Shown one piece after another: positions 6,280-22,081 of a stretch of 64,000 nucleotides of DNA. The DNA comes from Candidatus Edwardsbacteria bacterium RifOxyA12_full_54_48 (GTDB lineage: Bacteria; Edwardsbacteria; AC1; EtOH8): contig MFFN01000004.1 of assembly GCA_001777915.1 (NCBI GenBank), positions 489,744-553,743 on the forward strand. The letters run 5' to 3'. Within the stretch, counting starts at the first letter, position 1; every line of letters begins with the position of its first letter. Both the position numbers and the translations under genes were made by a program. The notes beneath the pieces are model-generated. The model was given only the letters and a program-made list of their open reading frames with translations, did no database searches and was not told where the DNA came from.

Positions 6280-7701
6280 TTATTTCCTCCCTTTCTTGGT
6301 GACACCCCGAGCCTGTCGAGGGGCAATTTTCTTGGCTTTTTCCCCGGCCTTCTTGACCACAACTTTCTTTTTAGTTGTTTTAATAGGTTTAACCTTCTTG
6401 GCTTTCGGTGCCGGGCTGACCGTGCGGGGATCGGTGATCTCGCCAGTTATGGCCGAGGCCGCGGCGGTGGCCGCCGAGCTTAAGTAGACCTCGGCATTAG
6501 GATTGCCCATCCGCCCCTTGAAATTCCTATTGGTGGTGGCCAGGGCCTTGTCGCCGTCGGCCAGGGCTCCCTGGTGCACGCCCAGGCAGGGGCCGCAGCC
6601 GGAGTTCATCACCACCGCGCCGGCCTTCATGAATATCTCCACGTAACCCTTCTTCAAGGCCTGCTGATAGATACGGGTGGAGGCCGGGAACACCAGCATC
6701 CGGACGCTGCGGGCCACTTTCTTGCCCTTTAATATTCCGGCGGCAATGGCCAGGTCGTCCAGGCGGCCGTTGGTGCAGGAGCCGATCACGATCTGCTGGA
6801 CCTTGATGCCGCGGGCGGCGCCCACCGGCTTGACGTTATCCACGGTGTGGGGGAAGGCGATCTGGGGCTCCAGTTTGGAAGCGTCGATCTCCACCACCTG
6901 TTCGTAAACCGCGTCGGCATCCGGGCCGAACAGCTCGGGGATGTTCTTGACCCCGGCTTCTGTCTTCAGGTAGCGCACGGTCTCGTTATCCGGCGGGACG
7001 ATGCCGCCGGTGGCGCCGGCCTCCACCGTCATGTTGCACAGCACCAGACGGCCGGAGGTGGACATCTTCCTGATGGTCTCGCCGTGGAACTCGATCACCT
7101 TGAAGTTGGCACCCTCGGCGGAAAGCTTGCCGATCAGGTGCAATATGATATCCTTGGGTTCGACGTACTTGGGCAGGGTCCCGTTGACCACCACCTTGAT
7201 GGTCCCCGGCACCTCCACGTTCAGGATCTTGCCCAGGGCCCAGACCGCGGCCATCTCGGTGGCCCCGATGCCGAAGGAGAAGGCGCCCAGGGCCCCGTGG
7301 CTGGTGGTGTGGCTGTCGGTGCCGACCACCACCGATCCCGGCAGGACGTAGCCGTTCTCGGGCAGTATCTGATGGCAGATGCCGCCCTCATCGCCCCGGA
7401 TGTCGTGGAATTTGGTGATGCCCTGTTTGGCCACGAACTCGCGGATCTTCTTCTGGTTCCCGGCGGTCTTGGAGCTCTCGGCCGGCACCCGGTGGTCAAA
7501 GATGATGGCGATCTTTGACGGATCCCAGACCCTGGCCTCGATCCCGGTGTCCTGGTAGATCTCGTTGAATTGGTTGATCACCAGTGCGCCGTTCTCGTGG
7601 GACATGGCCAGGCTGACCTTGGGCTCGACCACGTCGTTCACTTTGACGGCTGCCTGGCCGGTGGCCCTGGCCAGGATCTTTTGGACCATTGTCATTCCCA
7701 T
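6280..7701 (-). CDS. leuC: 3-isopropylmalate dehydratase-type large subunit with a basic C-terminal tail
   Basis: The catalytic [4Fe-4S] subunit of an aconitase-family hydro-lyase. Cluster ligands are visible: C309 in GSCTNGR and C369/C372 in SGCGPCLG; GTDSHTTSHGALG (about 127-139) is the other signature. The core ends near residue 427. It is followed by a lysine-rich tail (about 428-473, KKVKPIKTTKKKVVVKK and so on) not normal for LeuC. Part of the tail (APRQARGVTK) is encoded by a dispersed-repeat-like sequence at 6305-6323. The ATG at 7701 has AGGAG 7 nt upstream. It forms an operon with leuD and lies just downstream of the AT-rich nuclease block. Substrate uncertain. Confidence 0.9.
   Translation of the reverse strand: MGMTMVQKILARATGQAAVKVNDVVEPKVSLAMSHENGALVINQFNEIYQDTGIEARVWDPSKIAIIFDHRVPAESSKTAGNQKKIREFVAKQGITKFHDIRGDEGGICHQILPENGYVLPGSVVVGTDSHTTSHGALGAFSFGIGATEMAAVWALGKILNVEVPGTIKVVVNGTLPKYVEPKDIILHLIGKLSAEGANFKVIEFHGETIRKMSTSGRLVLCNMTVEAGATGGIVPPDNETVRYLKTEAGVKNIPELFGPDADAVYEQVVEIDASKLEPQIAFPHTVDNVKPVGAARGIKVQQIVIGSCTNGRLDDLAIAAGILKGKKVARSVRMLVFPASTRIYQQALKKGYVEIFMKAGAVVMNSGCGPCLGVHQGALADGDKALATTNRNFKGRMGNPNAEVYLSSAATAAASAITGEITDPRTVSPAPKAKKVKPIKTTKKKVVVKKAGEKAKKIAPRQARGVTKKGRK
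6305..6323. repeat. Palindromic repeat embedded in the leuC 3' end
   Basis: CCCCGAGCCTGTCGAGGGG, flanked by GGTGACA on the left, has the look of the dispersed GTCACCC/TCGACAGGCTC intergenic repeats in this chromosome, yet it lies inside the leuC reading frame and is translated as part of the basic tail. Confidence 0.55.
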
Positions 7702-7741
7702 ACTGTAACTCCTAACATGTTAATAAACATTTGGTTTATTA

Positions 7742-9238
7742 TTACTTTTGTTGCTTGGGCGGGAAATATGTCTGAAATTCATAGACATTAATATTTATGG
7801 TATTCTTATTATCAGAGCCAAGTTGAATCTTTATGTTCTCCCCTGACCTATTCTTTTGACTAGCACGCGTAAGATACTTTTCTATTGTTGTTGAATATTT
7901 ATGCGTTATCTGTATGAAACGTTTTTCGCCCTTTTGTGCTTTATTGTAAATTTGAATTACATCCCGTGGTTTTAAAAAGCCATATTTATCATCCATATCA
8001 TATAATTCATCTAATTTACATTCTTGAAAAGCTTTATAACTTTCGTCATTTAATAAAACCATTTTCTTTTTATAAATTTTGGTAACTGGTAATTTCGTGT
8101 GTTTTTCGGGAAATATTTTAATCCGTGAGTATTCATCACTATAAAATTCTTCTCCGCCACCAATAATTCTAAAAGTTTTAATATAGCCAGCGAAAGGATC
8201 ATCATTTTTGTTGTAATCAACATATATATGTGCGCATTTATGGCTTATATCACCAATACTATCCACAAGTAAAATATCTGAATATTTTATTAAGCCATCA
8301 ATTGTAATATAACCTTTGTTACAATTGGGAATAAAATTCCATGTATCAAGAGTCAATTCATGTTTTTCTGACTCGATACGTCTTTTTTCGGGATCAAGTT
8401 CAATCACATGGTAGTTGGTTGTCAAATCAAATAATTTAGTAAAATCGAATTCTTTTTTATCATAATCAATATATGCATAATATTCATGACAATGGCATAA
8501 AATACCAAGTGGATGATGCTCAAATGCGATATATTCTTTCCAGCGTGGATATTTATCAAAATCCGTATAATCGTCTTTATACGGATACTTTATATCTTTT
8601 AAGTCTCTAACAAGTATTGGTGTGTTAAAATGATAATTATCCCCGAGTATTTTATATAATTTATTTTTTGTAATTACTCCGGCGCGTAGTTCTGTTACTC
8701 TTGATCTTCTTTTACTAACCAATGAAATACCAAAAAATGTAAAAAGAAGCCTATCGTTTTTGGGTAAATATAACATGTCTTCTAGTTCGGCCTTACCCCA
8801 TAGATAAAATTCCATCACTCCTTTTTTACGTAGTTCTTCCCTGAAAATATCATAGGATTCTTTAGAGAAATTTGCAGATGCAGCTAATATGTATCCATAA
8901 GGTGGGGTTTTAATATCGGCTTCAGCAACAATTGCTTGTACCCGTTTAGGTCCAATCTCTTTTTCTCTTTTCCCTTGTATCATCCATAGATTACCTTCCA
9001 TAGGATGAATTTCAGAAACTTCGTCGTCCTCAGCAGTGTTTTCGCGTGAAGGAGTTTCTGTTTTTTCGTACGCACGAATATCAAAACCTTCATCGCTTCC
9101 ACTTCTGCCGGTAGCTTCTATGCTTTGCCAGTCCTTATAGTCATAAATTAATTCTCTAACTAGATCCTCAAAGCGATGGGGATCTAAATCTTCAAAATGA
9201 ATAGGACCATATGTCCTTGTAATGTGCGGCTTATGCAT
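7742..9238 (-). CDS. Mrr-like restriction endonuclease domain protein
   Basis: A 498-residue protein whose N-terminal ~150 residues match the Mrr_cat PD-(D/E)xK nuclease fold: F-E-D-L-V (E24), GSDEGFD (D53) and W-M-I-Q-G-K (Q88-x-K90), followed by GPKRV and a GYILAAS strand with SKESYDIF. This is the arrangement of type IV, modified-DNA restriction enzymes. The remaining ~350 residues match nothing I recognise and may be a recognition or sensing domain. It is distinctly AT-rich in a GC-rich neighbourhood. It starts 11 bp after the HNH gene, forming a three-gene unit. A role in phage or plasmid defence is inferred. Confidence 0.75.
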   Translation of the reverse strand: MHKPHITRTYGPIHFEDLDPHRFEDLVRELIYDYKDWQSIEATGRSGSDEGFDIRAYEKTETPSRENTAEDDEVSEIHPMEGNLWMIQGKREKEIGPKRVQAIVAEADIKTPPYGYILAASANFSKESYDIFREELRKKGVMEFYLWGKAELEDMLYLPKNDRLLFTFFGISLVSKRRSRVTELRAGVITKNKLYKILGDNYHFNTPILVRDLKDIKYPYKDDYTDFDKYPRWKEYIAFEHHPLGILCHCHEYYAYIDYDKKEFDFTKLFDLTTNYHVIELDPEKRRIESEKHELTLDTWNFIPNCNKGYITIDGLIKYSDILLVDSIGDISHKCAHIYVDYNKNDDPFAGYIKTFRIIGGGEEFYSDEYSRIKIFPEKHTKLPVTKIYKKKMVLLNDESYKAFQECKLDELYDMDDKYGFLKPRDVIQIYNKAQKGEKRFIQITHKYSTTIEKYLTRASQKNRSGENIKIQLGSDNKNTININVYEFQTYFPPKQQK

Positions 9239-9249
9239 AACATCATTAT

Positions 9250-10356
9250 TTATGAAGTGCGAAACATGTCTTCATGCAATTTGTCACTTTCGGCAATAAT
9301 CGTTTTAATAATTTCATATTCTTTTTTTGTTTCGTACTCGACATGTAGCATCCTTAAGGGAATACTATCAAATAAACTACCATAGGTAGTTTGTAGTCGA
9401 ATGGCATATTCAAAACCACCATTATAAAGGCTTACAATGCCAAAAACATTGTTTGCTTGATTTACATTGCCACAAAGTAATAAATGAGAATTTTCGGTAA
9501 GTTTTAACCCAGATGAAAGATTCTCATAAATGCTATGGCCACTAAACTTCGGGATTATAGAAACATAACTAAATTGAGAGGCATTGCTTCCAAATCTGAC
9601 ATATTCCCTAAAATCATTAAATGTTGCATGCAGAGCTGTTTCTTGTGAAAAATGCATAGCCAAACAATTTAAAATCATTTTACCAATAATCCTAAAATGC
9701 TCATCTAAAGAAAATGGTAGGGATTGATGGCTGGTGACGTATGAGATTGTTGTTTTGCTGTTAGCTAAATCTGTCGGTGTGGGCGTTGTGGTCTTGCAGC
9801 TTTCTTTTAAATCAAACAATAAAGGTTTATCGCTTTCATTATTAATGCCCGCAAATAATTTGCCTTTAAACATTGCTAAAATGGGATGATTTGGTTCTAT
9901 GCGATCATCCATTATAAATATTATATTTTCATTAGGGGTCGTACTACACAAAGCTTTAAAATCATTAAGAATAGCTTCCAGATTACCGCGATCTCTTTCA
10001 TTAGCCGCAAAAGCCGCCTCATTTTCATTTATATATTTAAATTGAGGCGCAAGACAAGGATAACCACCTTGTTCTATATATCCAAGCCCTAAGGTAGTCG
10101 ACCCACGCATTATTAAATGCAATCTTGTTTGATAGACACCACTTCTACCCGAAGGACCTCTAAACTGTTTAGGAATAGCCATGATTGAATCATAAATAAA
10201 ACGCCGTTCCAAAAAACTAAAATATTGGTTGCACTCATCACAAACAAATCCGACAGGTAAACGGTTAAGACCACCAATATTACGCAATACAATATGATCA
10301 CGACATGTAAAACTTGTTGGTGCGTCTTCTTTAAGACAATAAATGCACTTATTCAT
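9250..10356 (-). CDS. HNH endonuclease family protein
   Basis: A 368-residue protein beginning with a zinc-stabilised HNH module of the HNH_5 kind: C4-x2-C7, H21 in the RDHIV stretch, then GG and C39-x2-C42-N43. The rest, about 320 residues, has no motif I recognise. Its ATG is 3 bp after the stop of the upstream membrane-protein gene and its stop is 11 bp before the Mrr-like gene, so all three are very likely co-transcribed. It is AT-rich like both partners. A nuclease in a nuclease pair with a membrane protein suggests an immunity function, but no known defence system with exactly these three genes comes to mind. Confidence 0.75.
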   Translation of the reverse strand: MNKCIYCLKEDAPTSFTCRDHIVLRNIGGLNRLPVGFVCDECNQYFSFLERRFIYDSIMAIPKQFRGPSGRSGVYQTRLHLIMRGSTTLGLGYIEQGGYPCLAPQFKYINENEAAFAANERDRGNLEAILNDFKALCSTTPNENIIFIMDDRIEPNHPILAMFKGKLFAGINNESDKPLLFDLKESCKTTTPTPTDLANSKTTISYVTSHQSLPFSLDEHFRIIGKMILNCLAMHFSQETALHATFNDFREYVRFGSNASQFSYVSIIPKFSGHSIYENLSSGLKLTENSHLLLCGNVNQANNVFGIVSLYNGGFEYAIRLQTTYGSLFDSIPLRMLHVEYETKKEYEIIKTIIAESDKLHEDMFRTS

Positions 10357-10359
10357 TTA

Positions 10360-11148
10360 TTACTTTTTAACCTTAATTGTGCGCCGAGTGTGTTTGTGTG
10401 TTTTAATAACTTCCGTTTTTTGGTTTCGCTCGTTGTAGTGAGCAACTATATATAGCTCTGCCTCTGCCTGGAATTTGCTAAACAATACTGGTAAAATATC
10501 AAGTAAACGGTATGACAGCGTTAATAAATAGAGCGTCACAAGTAGTGTTAATGTGGTTAGCAAGTAAAGAAGCCAACCAAAGGTGGATAGGGAAATAAAA
10601 TATATAGTAATTGTTATTAAAGCCCGAAAAATGAAATGATAATTTGCCATCAGTTCATTTTTCTGTTCGGTTAAGCCCTTTTCAATATTATTATAATTTT
10701 CCGGCGTTAGTTTATTTTTTAAATGATTGTAAACTTCAATAAGCATTGTTTCCGTTAATTCAATGGGGATAACTTTTTTTGATATAGCACTTATCTCGTT
10801 TATTTTATTGGCAACGGTTTCTTTTTTTACCTTATAGTCAATTATGGATTTAGTCCATTTTACCGTCTTTGAATATGTTATTAGGTAAAAGGTTGTAAGA
10901 GAAATAATATGAGTGATGCCATATGCCGCAATAAAAATACTCAAAGGTATAAAAAAATTACCCTTAACAAAATAATCCAATATGCTCTTATAGTCATAGT
11001 AATCAAACCAATAATATTGCTCATAAATCTTTTCATATATGAATGAAGCAATACTTATATTAAAAAGCAAATTAAATATTCTACGCACAGGACGATAGAT
11101 AGAATTGCCTTTTATATAATCTGCAGCAATAAAAAATAAATCATTCAT
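10360..11148 (-). CDS. Membrane protein of unknown function, first gene of the AT-rich block
   Basis: 262 residues with about four hydrophobic spans: near residues 23-45, a long one near 68-92, and a double span near 172-215 (ITIYFISLSTFGWLLYLLTTLTLLVTLYLL in outline). Between them is a charged, helical cytoplasmic stretch of about 80 residues; the end is basic (TRRTIKVKK). No family recognised. It shares the low-GC composition of the following HNH and Mrr-like genes and starts only 19 bp after the broken recombinase, so it has little room for its own promoter. In a defence model it would be a membrane effector or anchor; that is speculation. Confidence 0.65.
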   Translation of the reverse strand: MNDLFFIAADYIKGNSIYRPVRRIFNLLFNISIASFIYEKIYEQYYWFDYYDYKSILDYFVKGNFFIPLSIFIAAYGITHIISLTTFYLITYSKTVKWTKSIIDYKVKKETVANKINEISAISKKVIPIELTETMLIEVYNHLKNKLTPENYNNIEKGLTEQKNELMANYHFIFRALITITIYFISLSTFGWLLYLLTTLTLLVTLYLLTLSYRLLDILPVLFSKFQAEAELYIVAHYNERNQKTEVIKTHKHTRRTIKVKK

Positions 11149-11167
11149 AAAAGTCTGTTTTATAATG

Positions 11168-11776
11168 TTAAAAAGTTGTTTTCTTCTTCATAGTCTTGAT
11201 ATCCCCTGCCGCCGGTGGGCAGATCTCCCGCGCCGGGGTCAGCACCTGCTCAAAGTAAAACTTGATGGCGCTCATGGCCTGGTTCCTATAGCTCCCGGAC
11301 ACGCCCTTCTCGACGCTTAGGTATTCCAGGTAAGCCTGGATCTCCGCCGGGCCCAGTTCCTGGGGCGGCCGGTGCCTGGTATGGGCCAGCAGCAAATTAA
11401 AATGAGACACATAGACCCGGATGGTGGCCTCGCTGTAATTGCGCTGGCGGAGCTGTTCCAGGTACTCCGGCGGCAGGGCCGGGCTTTGGGACGATGAACG
11501 CCTTCTTTTCAGCCCGTCCGTCCGGGGCCCGTCAGCGCTCCGTTTGGCCCGCCGGCCGGGCTGGGGCGCGTCGCTTACCTCGGCCAGGCCGTCCAGCTTG
11601 GCCTGCAGGTAGGCCAGCCAGTTCTCCCGCCAGGGCATCAGGCCCTCATGGGAGCCGGCTCGCCAGTGCAGGCTGGGCAGCCTTGTTTTGATCTCGGCCG
11701 CTGGGATCTCGTCAGCGATGTCCAGCCTGACCCATTTCCGGCCCAGATGGGTAACGGGTTCGCAGTAGATGGTCAT
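11168..11776 (-). pseudogene. Truncated tyrosine recombinase (integrase SAM-like domain only)
   Basis: From the ATG at 11776 (or an in-frame GTG 9 nt earlier) a 202-residue product can be read. Residues about 103-180 are a core-binding SAM-like domain: YLEQLRQRNYSEATIRVYVS, then LGPAEIQAYLEYLSVEKGVS and NQAMSAIKFYFEQVL, as in XerC/D-type and integron-type recombinases. The catalytic domain (R, H-x-x-R, Y) should follow, but after AREICPPAAGDIKTMKKKTTF the frame ends, and no such domain exists anywhere in the following AT-rich block. The N-terminal ~100 residues are unlike usual integrases. GC content drops abruptly at this stop, so it was probably cut by the insertion of, or a deletion beside, the nuclease block. 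Confidence 0.8.
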
Positions 11777-11832
11777 CCGGTTCACCGCTGGCTCTGGTTG
11801 GGTCCCGGGGATGTCGTGAGTTCCGTCATTAA

Positions 11833-13938
11833 TTAAATTGCCGCTTTGTCCTTCATGGCCTTGATCTCTTCCGCCGTATAGCCCAGCTGGGTCAGGATCT
11901 CCTGCTGGTGCTGTCCCAGGGTCGGCGGCGGGGCGTCGATCGAGGCCGGGGTGGCCGAGAACTTGGCCGACAGGTTGAACAGCTTCAGCTCGCCCAGGTC
12001 CGGGTCCTTGATGCTCTCGATGGTCTGGCGGTACTTCACTTGCTCGGCGTTGAGGGCCTTCTCCAGGCTGAAGATGTCGCCGGTGGGAATGCCCTTGGCG
12101 TTCAGCGCCTCCACCCAGTAGTCGGTGGTCTGCTGTTTGAGCTTGGCCTCCAGCAGGGGTGTCAACTCTTTTCGGTTCTTCTTGCGGGTGTCCCGCTCCT
12201 GGAACCTGGGATCGGTCAACAGCTCCGGTACGCCCAGCACGGTGGCCAGGTCCTCCCACTGCTTCTGCTGGTTGGCGGCGATGTTGACGAAGCCGTCCTT
12301 GGTCACGAAAGTTCCCGAGGGCGCGGCGGTGAAATTGTCGTTGCCCATGGCCACCGGCTGCTGCCCGCCGATCAATAAATTGGCCGCCACCCAGCCCATC
12401 AGGGGCATGATGGAGTCCAATAATGCGATGTCGATGAACTGGCCCTGGCCGGTCTTCTCCCTATAATACAAAGCGGCCATGATGGCGAAGGCGGCATTGA
12501 GGCCGCCCACCGTGTCGCACACCGGGAAGCCGGCCCGCAAGGGATGCAGGCGCTCGTCGCCGTTGACGTCCATCACCCCGGACAGGCCCTGGATGATCTG
12601 GTCATAGGCCGGCTTGAAGGCGTCGGGCCCGGCCTGGCCGAACCCGGAGATGGCGCAGTAAATGATCTTGGGGTTGATCTTCCTGATCTCGGCGTATGAG
12701 AAGCCCAGCCGGTCCATCACCCCGGGGCGGAAATTTTCCACCAGAACGTCGGCGGTCTTCAGCAGCTTGCGGAAGATCTCCTTGGCCTCCTCGGCCTTCA
12801 AATTTAAGGTGATGGATTTCTTGTTGGCGTTCTGGGCCAGAAAGCTAGTTCCCATTAGTTTCTGGTTCAACGCCGGGACCGCCCCCAGCTTGCGGGCCAG
12901 GTCGCCGCCCTCGGGGTTCTCGATCTTGATCACCTCGGCGCCCAACAGGGCCAGGTGCATGGTGGAGAAGGGGCCGGACAGGACATTGGTCATGTCCAGC
13001 ACCCGGACATTATTCATCATTTTTTTCGGCCTCGGCTTTATAAGTGAACCGGACTTGAGCACGGCGCCCGGCAGTTCGCGGTTAAAGAATACGGAAACCT
13101 CCTGGGCCACATCCAGCAGCCGGAACAGATCGATATCGGTCCGAAGCTCGGCCCGCTGCAGGGAATGGACCAGATCCTCGGTGGGCACGTTGCCGGCCGC
13201 CACCTTGGTGAAGGGACAGCCACCCAGTCCGCCGAAGGCCGTCTCGATGTACTTCACCCCGGCGTTCAGGGCGGCATAGCAGTTGGCCATTCCCAGCCCA
13301 TAAGTATTGTGGAAATGGCAGGCCAGTTCCACCTTGGGGTCCATCTTTCTGATGGCGGAGAACAGCCGCTCCACCTGCTGGGGATTGGCGTGGCCGGCGG
13401 TGTCGGCCAGGCTGATGTTCCTGATCCCGGCTTCCAGGTATTTTTTGACCATGGCCAGCACCTTGTCCTCGGGGATGGGGCCGTCGAAGCCGCAGCCGAA
13501 GGCCGACTGGACCGAGGCCTGGACCTTTTTGCCGGCGTCCCGGGCCTTTTTGGCCATTGACAGGATCTGGTCCATGGCCTTGTCCGGGCTCATCCCGGTG
13601 TTCTTCTGGCTGTGGGTCTCGGAGGCCGAGACTCCCATGCAGAACATCTCCACCCCGCAGGCCAAGCCGCGCTCGAAACCCTTTTCGTTCAGCACCAGTC
13701 CGGACAGGATGGTCTTGGGGTTCGGCTTGCCGTTTTTGGTATAGTGCTCGAACAGGGAGTCGGTGTCGGCCATCTGGGGCACCTTCACCTGATGGACGAA
13801 GGAGCCCACCTGGATGATATCCAGGCCGGACTCCATCAGGGCGTCGATCCATTTGATCTTGACGTCCATGGGCACCAACTGTTTCTCGATCTGCAGGCCG
13901 TCCCTAAGGCCCACCTCGTGAATGAAAATCTCAGACAT
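11833..13938 (-). CDS. Fused HMG-CoA lyase and family III (CaiB/BaiF) CoA-transferase
   Basis: One 701-residue frame with two complete enzymes. Residues 1-306 are an HMG-CoA lyase-type TIM barrel: GLRDGLQ (R12, D13), metal histidines in CHFHNTYG (H208, H210) and the G-loop cysteine in GLGGCP (C241). Residues 307-701 are a family III CoA-transferase: LDMTNVLSGP start, AEVIKIENPEGGD, and a catalytic-type Asp in VCDTVGG (D475, position 169 of the domain as in formyl-CoA transferase). A transferase of this kind could load CoA on a 3-hydroxy-dicarboxylate (3-hydroxy-3-methylglutarate, citramalate) and the lyase would cleave it to acetyl-CoA plus a keto acid; this is inference. The junction lies on an A7 run (13020-13026): one A fewer would give KK-stop overlapping ATGATG, so this may be two genes in some strains. 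Confidence 0.88.
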   Translation of the reverse strand: MSEIFIHEVGLRDGLQIEKQLVPMDVKIKWIDALMESGLDIIQVGSFVHQVKVPQMADTDSLFEHYTKNGKPNPKTILSGLVLNEKGFERGLACGVEMFCMGVSASETHSQKNTGMSPDKAMDQILSMAKKARDAGKKVQASVQSAFGCGFDGPIPEDKVLAMVKKYLEAGIRNISLADTAGHANPQQVERLFSAIRKMDPKVELACHFHNTYGLGMANCYAALNAGVKYIETAFGGLGGCPFTKVAAGNVPTEDLVHSLQRAELRTDIDLFRLLDVAQEVSVFFNRELPGAVLKSGSLIKPRPKKMMNNVRVLDMTNVLSGPFSTMHLALLGAEVIKIENPEGGDLARKLGAVPALNQKLMGTSFLAQNANKKSITLNLKAEEAKEIFRKLLKTADVLVENFRPGVMDRLGFSYAEIRKINPKIIYCAISGFGQAGPDAFKPAYDQIIQGLSGVMDVNGDERLHPLRAGFPVCDTVGGLNAAFAIMAALYYREKTGQGQFIDIALLDSIMPLMGWVAANLLIGGQQPVAMGNDNFTAAPSGTFVTKDGFVNIAANQQKQWEDLATVLGVPELLTDPRFQERDTRKKNRKELTPLLEAKLKQQTTDYWVEALNAKGIPTGDIFSLEKALNAEQVKYRQTIESIKDPDLGELKLFNLSAKFSATPASIDAPPPTLGQHQQEILTQLGYTAEEIKAMKDKAAI

Positions 13939-19997: not shown

Positions 19998-20021
19998 GAC
20001 GAGCGAGGAGGACTTTTTAAA

Positions 20022-20042
20022 CCACTAAGACACCAAGACACC
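20022..20042. repeat. CCACTAAGACACCAAGACACC oligo-repeat arm
   Basis: Tandem imperfect CAC(T/C)AAGA units immediately followed by a GTCATTCTGAG repeat end and a CCGAAGGATCTTT stretch. It occupies the spacer between lepA and the lipoprotein gene. Confidence 0.5.
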
Positions 20043-20144
20043 AATGTCATTCTGAGATTGACGCCGTGCGTTGCAAGCCGAAGGATCTTTCCAATCCGAC
20101 GACAAGTTCGAAAAGGAATTGTCCGATTTGTATGGAGTGGTGAA

Positions 20145-21326
20145 ATGCGAAAGCTTCTATTAATAAACATATTTGTTCTATTGACCCTGGGGTGTGCAGC
20201 GGTTCCCGTGCAGGCGCAAGATAAGGTCAATTATCATGCGCTTCCCAGCGAATTTAAAGAAATTTATTTTCGAACAGTTTGTCGGGATGTATCTGTCTAT
20301 GTAAATTTCTATGAATGGCAGGGCGAATCTCTTGATCAGGTGCATACCATTGCGTTATTGCCTACTGGTTATGTCTATGAACACGAAATGGATAGTACAA
20401 ATTTCCCTGATAAAGAATGGATCGATCGTTTTACTGAAAGTGTCAAAGCTAAATTGATCAAAGGATATACCAGTAAGTATATTGATAGTTCAGTGTTTGA
20501 TACTACGTCAAATTGGTTTAAAAGCGTTGATTCTTACAGTAAACATCTTCAGCAGGTTCTAATATATTCCAGCTTAAAAGCCGAAAACAAAATATTTAAT
20601 CGGAAGTTACTTGATTCTTTAAATAAATTATGGTACCACCCGGAGCTATTTATCATTTCACCTTCGGCAATAGATGATTATATAGATACTTCTGAATTCT
20701 ATCGTGACAATAGTATCAAAAAGAAATATGCCCGGTGGGGAGGCAAAGCTCATTACGATTCCATATACGATAATATAACAAGAATCGTACAAAGCGAGTT
20801 TACGGGAATTGGATTTTATAAAGTAATGCCGCCGGCAACGGCAAAAAATAAATGCGATTCCATCTATAATACACTTGATGACCATGGGCATGATTTATGG
20901 GATACGTGGTTTTACCCAAACACAAGTCGGGATGGATTATTTTATCCCTACAAAAAGACGAATTATTCCACTAAAAATGAAAGAACCAAAAAACAACTAT
21001 CAGATGCTGTCTTCCAATGTTTAGGAACGGATGCATATGTTGTTATTGATATTTCCTACGGTAGTTCAACAACGTCTTATATTGAAAAACGAAAATTTGA
21101 AATATCAAATCAAATATTTCTTCAAATATCTATGTTCGGACCTGAGTTTAATGTGCTTTGGTCGGCTGATTTTCCGATCAGCATGCAAATAAGACGGACG
21201 TATAGTATGCCAAACAAGAAAGAGCACAAGTATATATATCCCTATGAAATTATTGATTACAATATGGCCCGTGAAAATGTAAGGCGGACGTTAGCGGTGC
21301 TAAAGGCAAACAAAATATCAGAATAA
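20145..21326 (+). CDS. Hypothetical lipoprotein
   Basis: From the ATG at 20145 the product has 393 residues, beginning MRKLLLINIFVLLTLGCAAV: a lipoprotein signal peptide with a lipobox (LTLG-C). The mature part is mixed alpha/beta with many Tyr, Asp and Ser residues. I find no recognisable domain; a DAYVVIDISYGSS strand followed by a KRKFEISNQIFLQISMF segment hints at a beta-rich C-terminal domain like those of outer-membrane-associated CsgG-type lipoproteins, weakly. It is distinctly AT-rich between GC-rich lepA and lepB, a sign of a different origin. A longer in-frame start at 20058 is not needed. Confidence 0.7.
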   Translation: MRKLLLINIFVLLTLGCAAVPVQAQDKVNYHALPSEFKEIYFRTVCRDVSVYVNFYEWQGESLDQVHTIALLPTGYVYEHEMDSTNFPDKEWIDRFTESVKAKLIKGYTSKYIDSSVFDTTSNWFKSVDSYSKHLQQVLIYSSLKAENKIFNRKLLDSLNKLWYHPELFIISPSAIDDYIDTSEFYRDNSIKKKYARWGGKAHYDSIYDNITRIVQSEFTGIGFYKVMPPATAKNKCDSIYNTLDDHGHDLWDTWFYPNTSRDGLFYPYKKTNYSTKNERTKKQLSDAVFQCLGTDAYVVIDISYGSSTTSYIEKRKFEISNQIFLQISMFGPEFNVLWSADFPISMQIRRTYSMPNKKEHKYIYPYEIIDYNMARENVRRTLAVLKANKISE

Positions 21327-21376
21327 AATAATAAACTCCGGCACAGATGTATTTATAAAAAGGATTAGAAATTGGA

Positions 21377-22081
21377 ATGAAAAACAATTCATTTAATAAA
21401 CTCTGGCACGACTGGCTGTGGCCGCTGCTGTTTGCCGTGATCGTGGTCAAGTTCATCATCAACCCCTTTCTGCTGGAGGCCTACGAGGTGCCCACCGGCT
21501 CCATGGAGAAGACCATTCTGCCGGGCGACCGGCTGTTCGCCGAGAAATTCACCTACGGCATCCATATTCCCTTTACCGACAAGACCGTGCTTTCCATGAC
21601 CTCGCCCCGGCCGGGACAGATGGTGATCTTCCGCAGCCCCTACGACGGCCTGACCCTGGTCAAGCGCTGCATCGGCCTGCCGGGAGATACCATAGAAGTG
21701 AAGAATAAAAATCTTTACGTGAACGGCCATAAGTTGGAACAGAAATTCATCCAGCATACCGACCCCGAGCAATATCCCTTTCCGCAGTCCGTCATCAACC
21801 CCAAAACCATCCAGAACGACTGGGAGAGCGGGCGCAACGCCGAGCGCTACTGGGTGCGCGACAACTTCGGCCCGGTGGTGGTCCCCCCGGATTGCTACTT
21901 CATGATGGGCGACAACCGGGACGAATCGTTCGACTCCCGCTACTGGGGGCCGCTGCCCAAAAGGAACATCCGGGGCCGGGTGATGTTCATCTACTGGTCC
22001 TGGGACAAACAATCGGATACCCCGCTTATGAAATTCTGGCAGCGGTTCAGAATAACGCGGATAGGCAAGATACTGACCTAA
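21377..22081 (+). CDS. lepB: Signal peptidase I (first of two)
   Basis: A 234-residue membrane-anchored serine protease that removes signal peptides. One N-terminal TM span (about residues 13-31), then catalytic Ser in PTGSMEKTI (about 41), Lys in LVKRCIGLPGD (about 97), and box E MGDNRDESFDSRYWGPLP. It starts 50 bp after the lipoprotein gene and is followed 33 bp later by a second signal peptidase, so the two are probably co-transcribed. Confidence 0.95.
   Translation: MKNNSFNKLWHDWLWPLLFAVIVVKFIINPFLLEAYEVPTGSMEKTILPGDRLFAEKFTYGIHIPFTDKTVLSMTSPRPGQMVIFRSPYDGLTLVKRCIGLPGDTIEVKNKNLYVNGHKLEQKFIQHTDPEQYPFPQSVINPKTIQNDWESGRNAERYWVRDNFGPVVVPPDCYFMMGDNRDESFDSRYWGPLPKRNIRGRVMFIYWSWDKQSDTPLMKFWQRFRITRIGKILT

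Follow-up and report, generated by a model that had tools for sequence, protein, structure and literature searches.

A putative modification-dependent restriction enzyme among the AT-rich cargo of a variable slot beside leuC

Do the three genes of an AT-rich block beside leuC form one new defense system, or are they separate genes that share a swappable site? The block has approximate edges at positions 7715-11205 of the window, meaning the whole 64,000-nucleotide stretch of Candidatus Edwardsbacteria DNA that was analyzed; the edges come from the GC step profile and from homology to relatives, and no strand is assigned to the block as a whole. Three intact genes lie within it, all on the minus strand: gene A (10360-11148) encodes an orphan membrane protein of 262 aa, gene B (9250-10356) an HNH protein of 368 aa, and gene C (7742-9238) an Mrr-type nuclease of 498 aa. 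Among the papers searched, we found no described operon that combines Mrr, HNH and membrane proteins.

An AT-rich block in a swappable slot

The initial annotation had described three genes on the minus strand, spaced by 3 and 11 bp and low in GC within a GC-rich region, and the coordinates and GC profile agree with that description. A 3-bp spacer separates genes A and B, an 11-bp spacer separates genes B and C, and GC content is 0.28-0.38 in the block (about 33%) compared to 0.57-0.65 outside (about 60%). The step profile showed sharp low-GC edges near 7690-7715 and 11190-11210, and homology to related genomes is lost at about 7701-7715 and regained at 11221. The AT-rich block is horizontally acquired foreign DNA. 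We found no clear terminal repeats at its edges, where flank repeats were limited to 7-bp matches not above chance, and a promoter and terminator scan gave a number of sites not above that in shuffled sequences. The tight spacing and common low GC suggest co-transcription and a single arrival, which could mean that the genes cooperate. A second AT-rich stretch (GC 0.34-0.41) is found at 20000-21500 of the window and carries a 422-aa ORF without a Pfam match.

The left flank of the slot is leuC (6280-7701, minus strand), which begins 40 bp beyond gene C and is also present as a conserved gene in eight more members of the family. On the opposite side, the ORF of a truncated tyrosine recombinase (11168-11833, minus strand) stops 19 bp ahead of gene A. 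The right flank is a minus-strand gene at 11833-13938, conserved in relatives and named by inspection as an HMG-CoA-lyase-like/CoA-transferase-like fusion. These positions bear out the annotated limits of the gene set, which was said to start 19 bp past a recombinase fragment without its catalytic half and to end immediately upstream of leuC.

Two relatives in the same family have an empty slot. In G006, leuC is followed by 131 bp, the same truncated recombinase and then the same right-flank gene; in G004, the slot is 148 bp long and the recombinase is absent. Other relatives carry cargo that is likewise AT-rich but different in content. G001 has a 229-aa protein with two TM segments, G002 has a C5-methyltransferase together with a double GHKL ATPase, a radical SAM gene and a receiver-like gene, and G005 has a GNAT. 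The cargo of G009 is a Tsp45I restriction enzyme adjoining the recombinase remnant, with the two flanks on different contigs. With fixed flanks, empty alleles and other defense cargo in relatives, the site upstream of leuC is a swappable, defense-rich slot that follows the pattern of a defense hotspot, and it amounts to a small natural collection of defense-type genes.

Some neighboring features are recorded here in their own right. The C5-methyltransferase, double-GHKL ATPase and receiver-like genes of G002, which belongs to the same genus, lie together at L052:5641-9925 and possibly constitute an unusual restriction system. In G009, the 3' end of the right-flank gene is partly duplicated (L055:8230-8589) in the interval from the gene itself to the recombinase relic, and a remnant related to this duplicate is found in G008 (L059:1900-2545), perhaps as a trace of recombination at the slot.

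The recombinase fragment retains its N-terminal region and the SAM-like core-binding domain only (Phage_int_SAM_4, E 6.8e-16). The loss of the catalytic half thus stands as first described, but the fragment does not belong to the cassette, because the same loss is common to relatives that lack the cassette. In G006, G008 and G009, the remnant breaks off at one shared residue (...REI) with a stop directly after it, and the window copy loses homology at the very codon where these relatives (L055, L057 and L059) end. The truncation is therefore older than, or independent of, the cassette, and we rejected the recombinase as the cassette's own integrase. The remnant has a dN/dS of 0.18-0.39. Its dS between the window and G006 or G008 is 0.14-0.17, which is lower than the 0.35-0.53 of the flanking genes and suggests that the remnant may have moved on its own. 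Judged from these substitution rates, the N-terminal half is possibly a retained, mobile half-recombinase.

Gene C and its predicted sensor domain

Gene C was initially credited with the Mrr-type motifs E24, D53 and Q88-x-K90, and these held up under profile and alignment analysis. The protein matches Mrr_cat (PF04471) in Pfam with an E-value of 2.1e-5 and 25 bits, above the curated cut-off of 21. All nine sequences of the C alignment match the same family, and E24, D53, Q88 and K90 are invariant among them. PADLOC also matched the nuclease domain to PDC-M58A, although weakly.

A scan of a genome collection identified eight full-length C relatives with 41-59% identity from various phyla, their hosts being a delta-proteobacterial MAG, Paceibacterota, Microgenomates, Ignavibacteriae, Mucilaginibacter, Pedobacter, Hyphomonas and one more bacterium. 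Across 386 whole genomes, gene C recovered only itself and a broken fragment of 60 residues in G009. In most of the relative loci, C sits among known defense genes. At L013, its neighbors include C5-methyltransferase, Vsr, PifA-like and SIR2-like genes, and at L009 they include a LexA-S24-C5-methyltransferase fusion and an OLD-like ATPase. An MmeI-type IIG enzyme is found at L014, the DRT reverse transcriptase RT_UG39 at L012, SIR2_2 at L010 and an HSDR_N protein at L011; at L007, no defense-type genes surround the relative. Together with the restriction genes that occupy the leuC slot in relatives, these restriction-modification, reverse transcriptase, SIR2 and OLD neighbors support the defense-like setting first proposed for the block. 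The L009 fusion (L009:6337-7914) is itself unusual in that a single protein contains a LexA DNA-binding domain, an S24 peptidase and a C5 DNA methyltransferase.

We modeled C with AlphaFold2 from the nine sequences, at moderate confidence (mean pLDDT 77.7), and compared the model to the PDB with Foldseek. The top match was MspJI, a modification-dependent restriction enzyme, at E 1.6e-3, and no match reached E 0.001. Further matches were to YqfB, ASC-1 homologues, DUF984, DUF3850 and ASCH proteins with probabilities up to 1.00, the ASCH-type matches having TMt values up to 0.65 in the PDB. Among viral models, phage restriction endonucleases matched best, with DUF3850 and ASCH proteins lower down. 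Because Foldseek reports no residue range, we placed the predicted ASCH/PUA-like domain at approximately residues 375-492 by exclusion, from secondary structure and from a weak hhalign match of residues ~411-453 to YqfB. The ASCH-like domain gave no Pfam match with the nine-sequence alignment, and sequence searches of the PDB with C and with B returned nothing useful. Between this end and the nuclease lies a beta-rich middle domain.

ASCH is a member of the PUA superfamily, which supplies the usual sensors of modification-dependent restriction enzymes (PMC11347163), and these enzymes are usually built as fusions of a PUA-superfamily sensor to a nuclease (PMC11347163, PMC7897488). An MspJI-like nuclease together with an ASCH/PUA-like end in the predicted structure leads us to read C as a stand-alone, type IV-like enzyme, probably one whose restriction activity is modification-dependent and whose sensor is unusual. 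On incoming DNA, the C-terminal domain, perhaps with the middle domain, would recognize a modified base, and cutting would then fall to the N-terminal PD-(D/E)XK domain. C would need no partner methyltransferase because host DNA would lack the modified-base mark. The block has no methyltransferase gene, yet two C relatives (L009 and L013) adjoin a C5-methyltransferase. Modified-base reading, cleavage and any protection against phage are inferred.

Another view is that C is some other defense nuclease, such as an abortive effector, whose middle or C-terminal domain senses a signal other than modification. Shorter relatives of about 300-394 aa fit this view, since they have the nuclease and the greater part of the middle domain but not the ASCH-like end, as does the middle domain itself, which is conserved across the C alignment and of no assigned family. 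However, the best structural matches include MspJI and ASCH proteins, and C stands alone with no sensor partner, so we consider a role of this kind unlikely. A more ambitious form of the restriction-enzyme reading, which we put forward tentatively and with more doubt than belief, is that C founds a widespread and as yet unnamed family of Mrr-type enzymes that contain ASCH, in which ASCH would for the first time be seen to read modified DNA, with the middle domain acting as a second new reader or as a dimerization module. There is no experimental demonstration that ASCH domains read modified DNA (PMC11037411). If C is an ASCH-type modification-dependent enzyme, then it offers a direct test of this unproven idea and adds a stand-alone restriction family spread over several phyla.

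Genes A and B and the question of a single system

The annotation of B as an HNH protein is upheld by a match to HNH_5 (PF14279) at residues 4-53, with an E-value of 1.2e-7 and 32 bits against a curated cut-off of 27.5, and by the invariance of H21 and N43 in a six-sequence alignment. A C-terminal region of ~300 aa follows the HNH domain, and the whole protein matches phrog_35254 across its full length (E 3.4e-31). Relatives with 20-28% identity are found on a Niallia plasmid, on a Hymenobacter plasmid and in five viral contigs representing prophage loci; in the 386 genomes, B recovered itself and one short HNH match. The predicted structure (pLDDT 61) and fold search were uninformative. In two prophage loci, a TIR gene lies just upstream of the B relative. 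The TIR proteins of the two loci share 51% identity, which suggests that members of the B family may have partners; the remaining relatives have no partner gene in common. As an observation apart from the block, the conserved TIR-HNH pair (L041:4662-7059 and L042:4131-6549) is a candidate two-gene defense module. Judged by its homologues, B most likely belongs to a cargo family of plasmids and prophages and is an HNH nuclease independent of A and C.

Gene A was described as encoding about four TM segments. A simple hydropathy scan resolved three of them clearly, and the fourth is plausible only. The protein has no significant Pfam family, and plasmids, viral contigs and the 386 genomes yielded no relatives, only an unconvincing 25% partial match in a reading frame interrupted by stops. 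A is most likely an orphan membrane protein unrelated to B and C.

The initial annotation had proposed a single new system made up of A, B and C and had stated that failure to co-occur in other genomes would count against it. The sample for this question was one genome-contig scan with C only, the 386 whole genomes, and plasmid and viral loci, limited enough that a rare conserved form of the gene set may have escaped it. Neither A nor B was found near C within the DNA fetched for the eight full-length loci (0/8), nor in the five prophage (0/5) or three plasmid (0/3) loci, some of which hold partial C relatives only. Likewise, A and C were absent from all seven B loci, and neither B nor C was found in the phage records searched. 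The three genes are together in no other locus found, and B and C each occur without the other two, which is the outcome that the proposal had named as telling against it.

A three-gene anti-phage system, in which A would be the sensor or the executor and the two nucleases would cooperate, draws its appeal from the short spacers, shared strand and uniform low GC, and it is very unlikely given that no pair of the three genes was found together at another locus and that both nucleases have relatives without the other members. Somewhat less implausible, though still improbable, is that A and B arrived beside an independent C as a two-gene module of membrane protein and HNH effector. The 3-bp spacing between A and B and the TIR genes beside B relatives would agree with such a module, but no A homologue was detected in plasmids, viral contigs or the 386 genomes, the partners seen for B are TIR proteins rather than membrane proteins, and for several relatives of B no partner is evident. 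Because the two nucleases occur elsewhere without each other, the block looks like separate defense genes in a swappable slot. We consider it reasonably likely that the block is composite defense cargo, comprising a stand-alone modification-dependent restriction endonuclease (C), an independent HNH nuclease (B) and an unrelated membrane protein (A).

Comparison with known systems

The leuC slot resembles chromosomal and phage defense hotspots in its fixed flanks, empty alleles and exchangeable, partly restriction-type cargo, but differs from them in having neither an intact integrase nor clear terminal repeats. B shares an N-terminal HNH_5 domain, overall length and the H21 and N43 residues with phrog_35254 proteins, although it is only 20-28% identical to the plasmid and prophage members. 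C is like the Mrr and MspJI-type (type IV/IIM) enzymes in being a stand-alone protein with an Mrr-like PD-QXK nuclease and a predicted PUA-superfamily domain, encoded in a block without a methyltransferase partner. In contrast to those enzymes, its predicted sensor is ASCH-like and C-terminal, and it has a conserved middle domain of about 200 residues.
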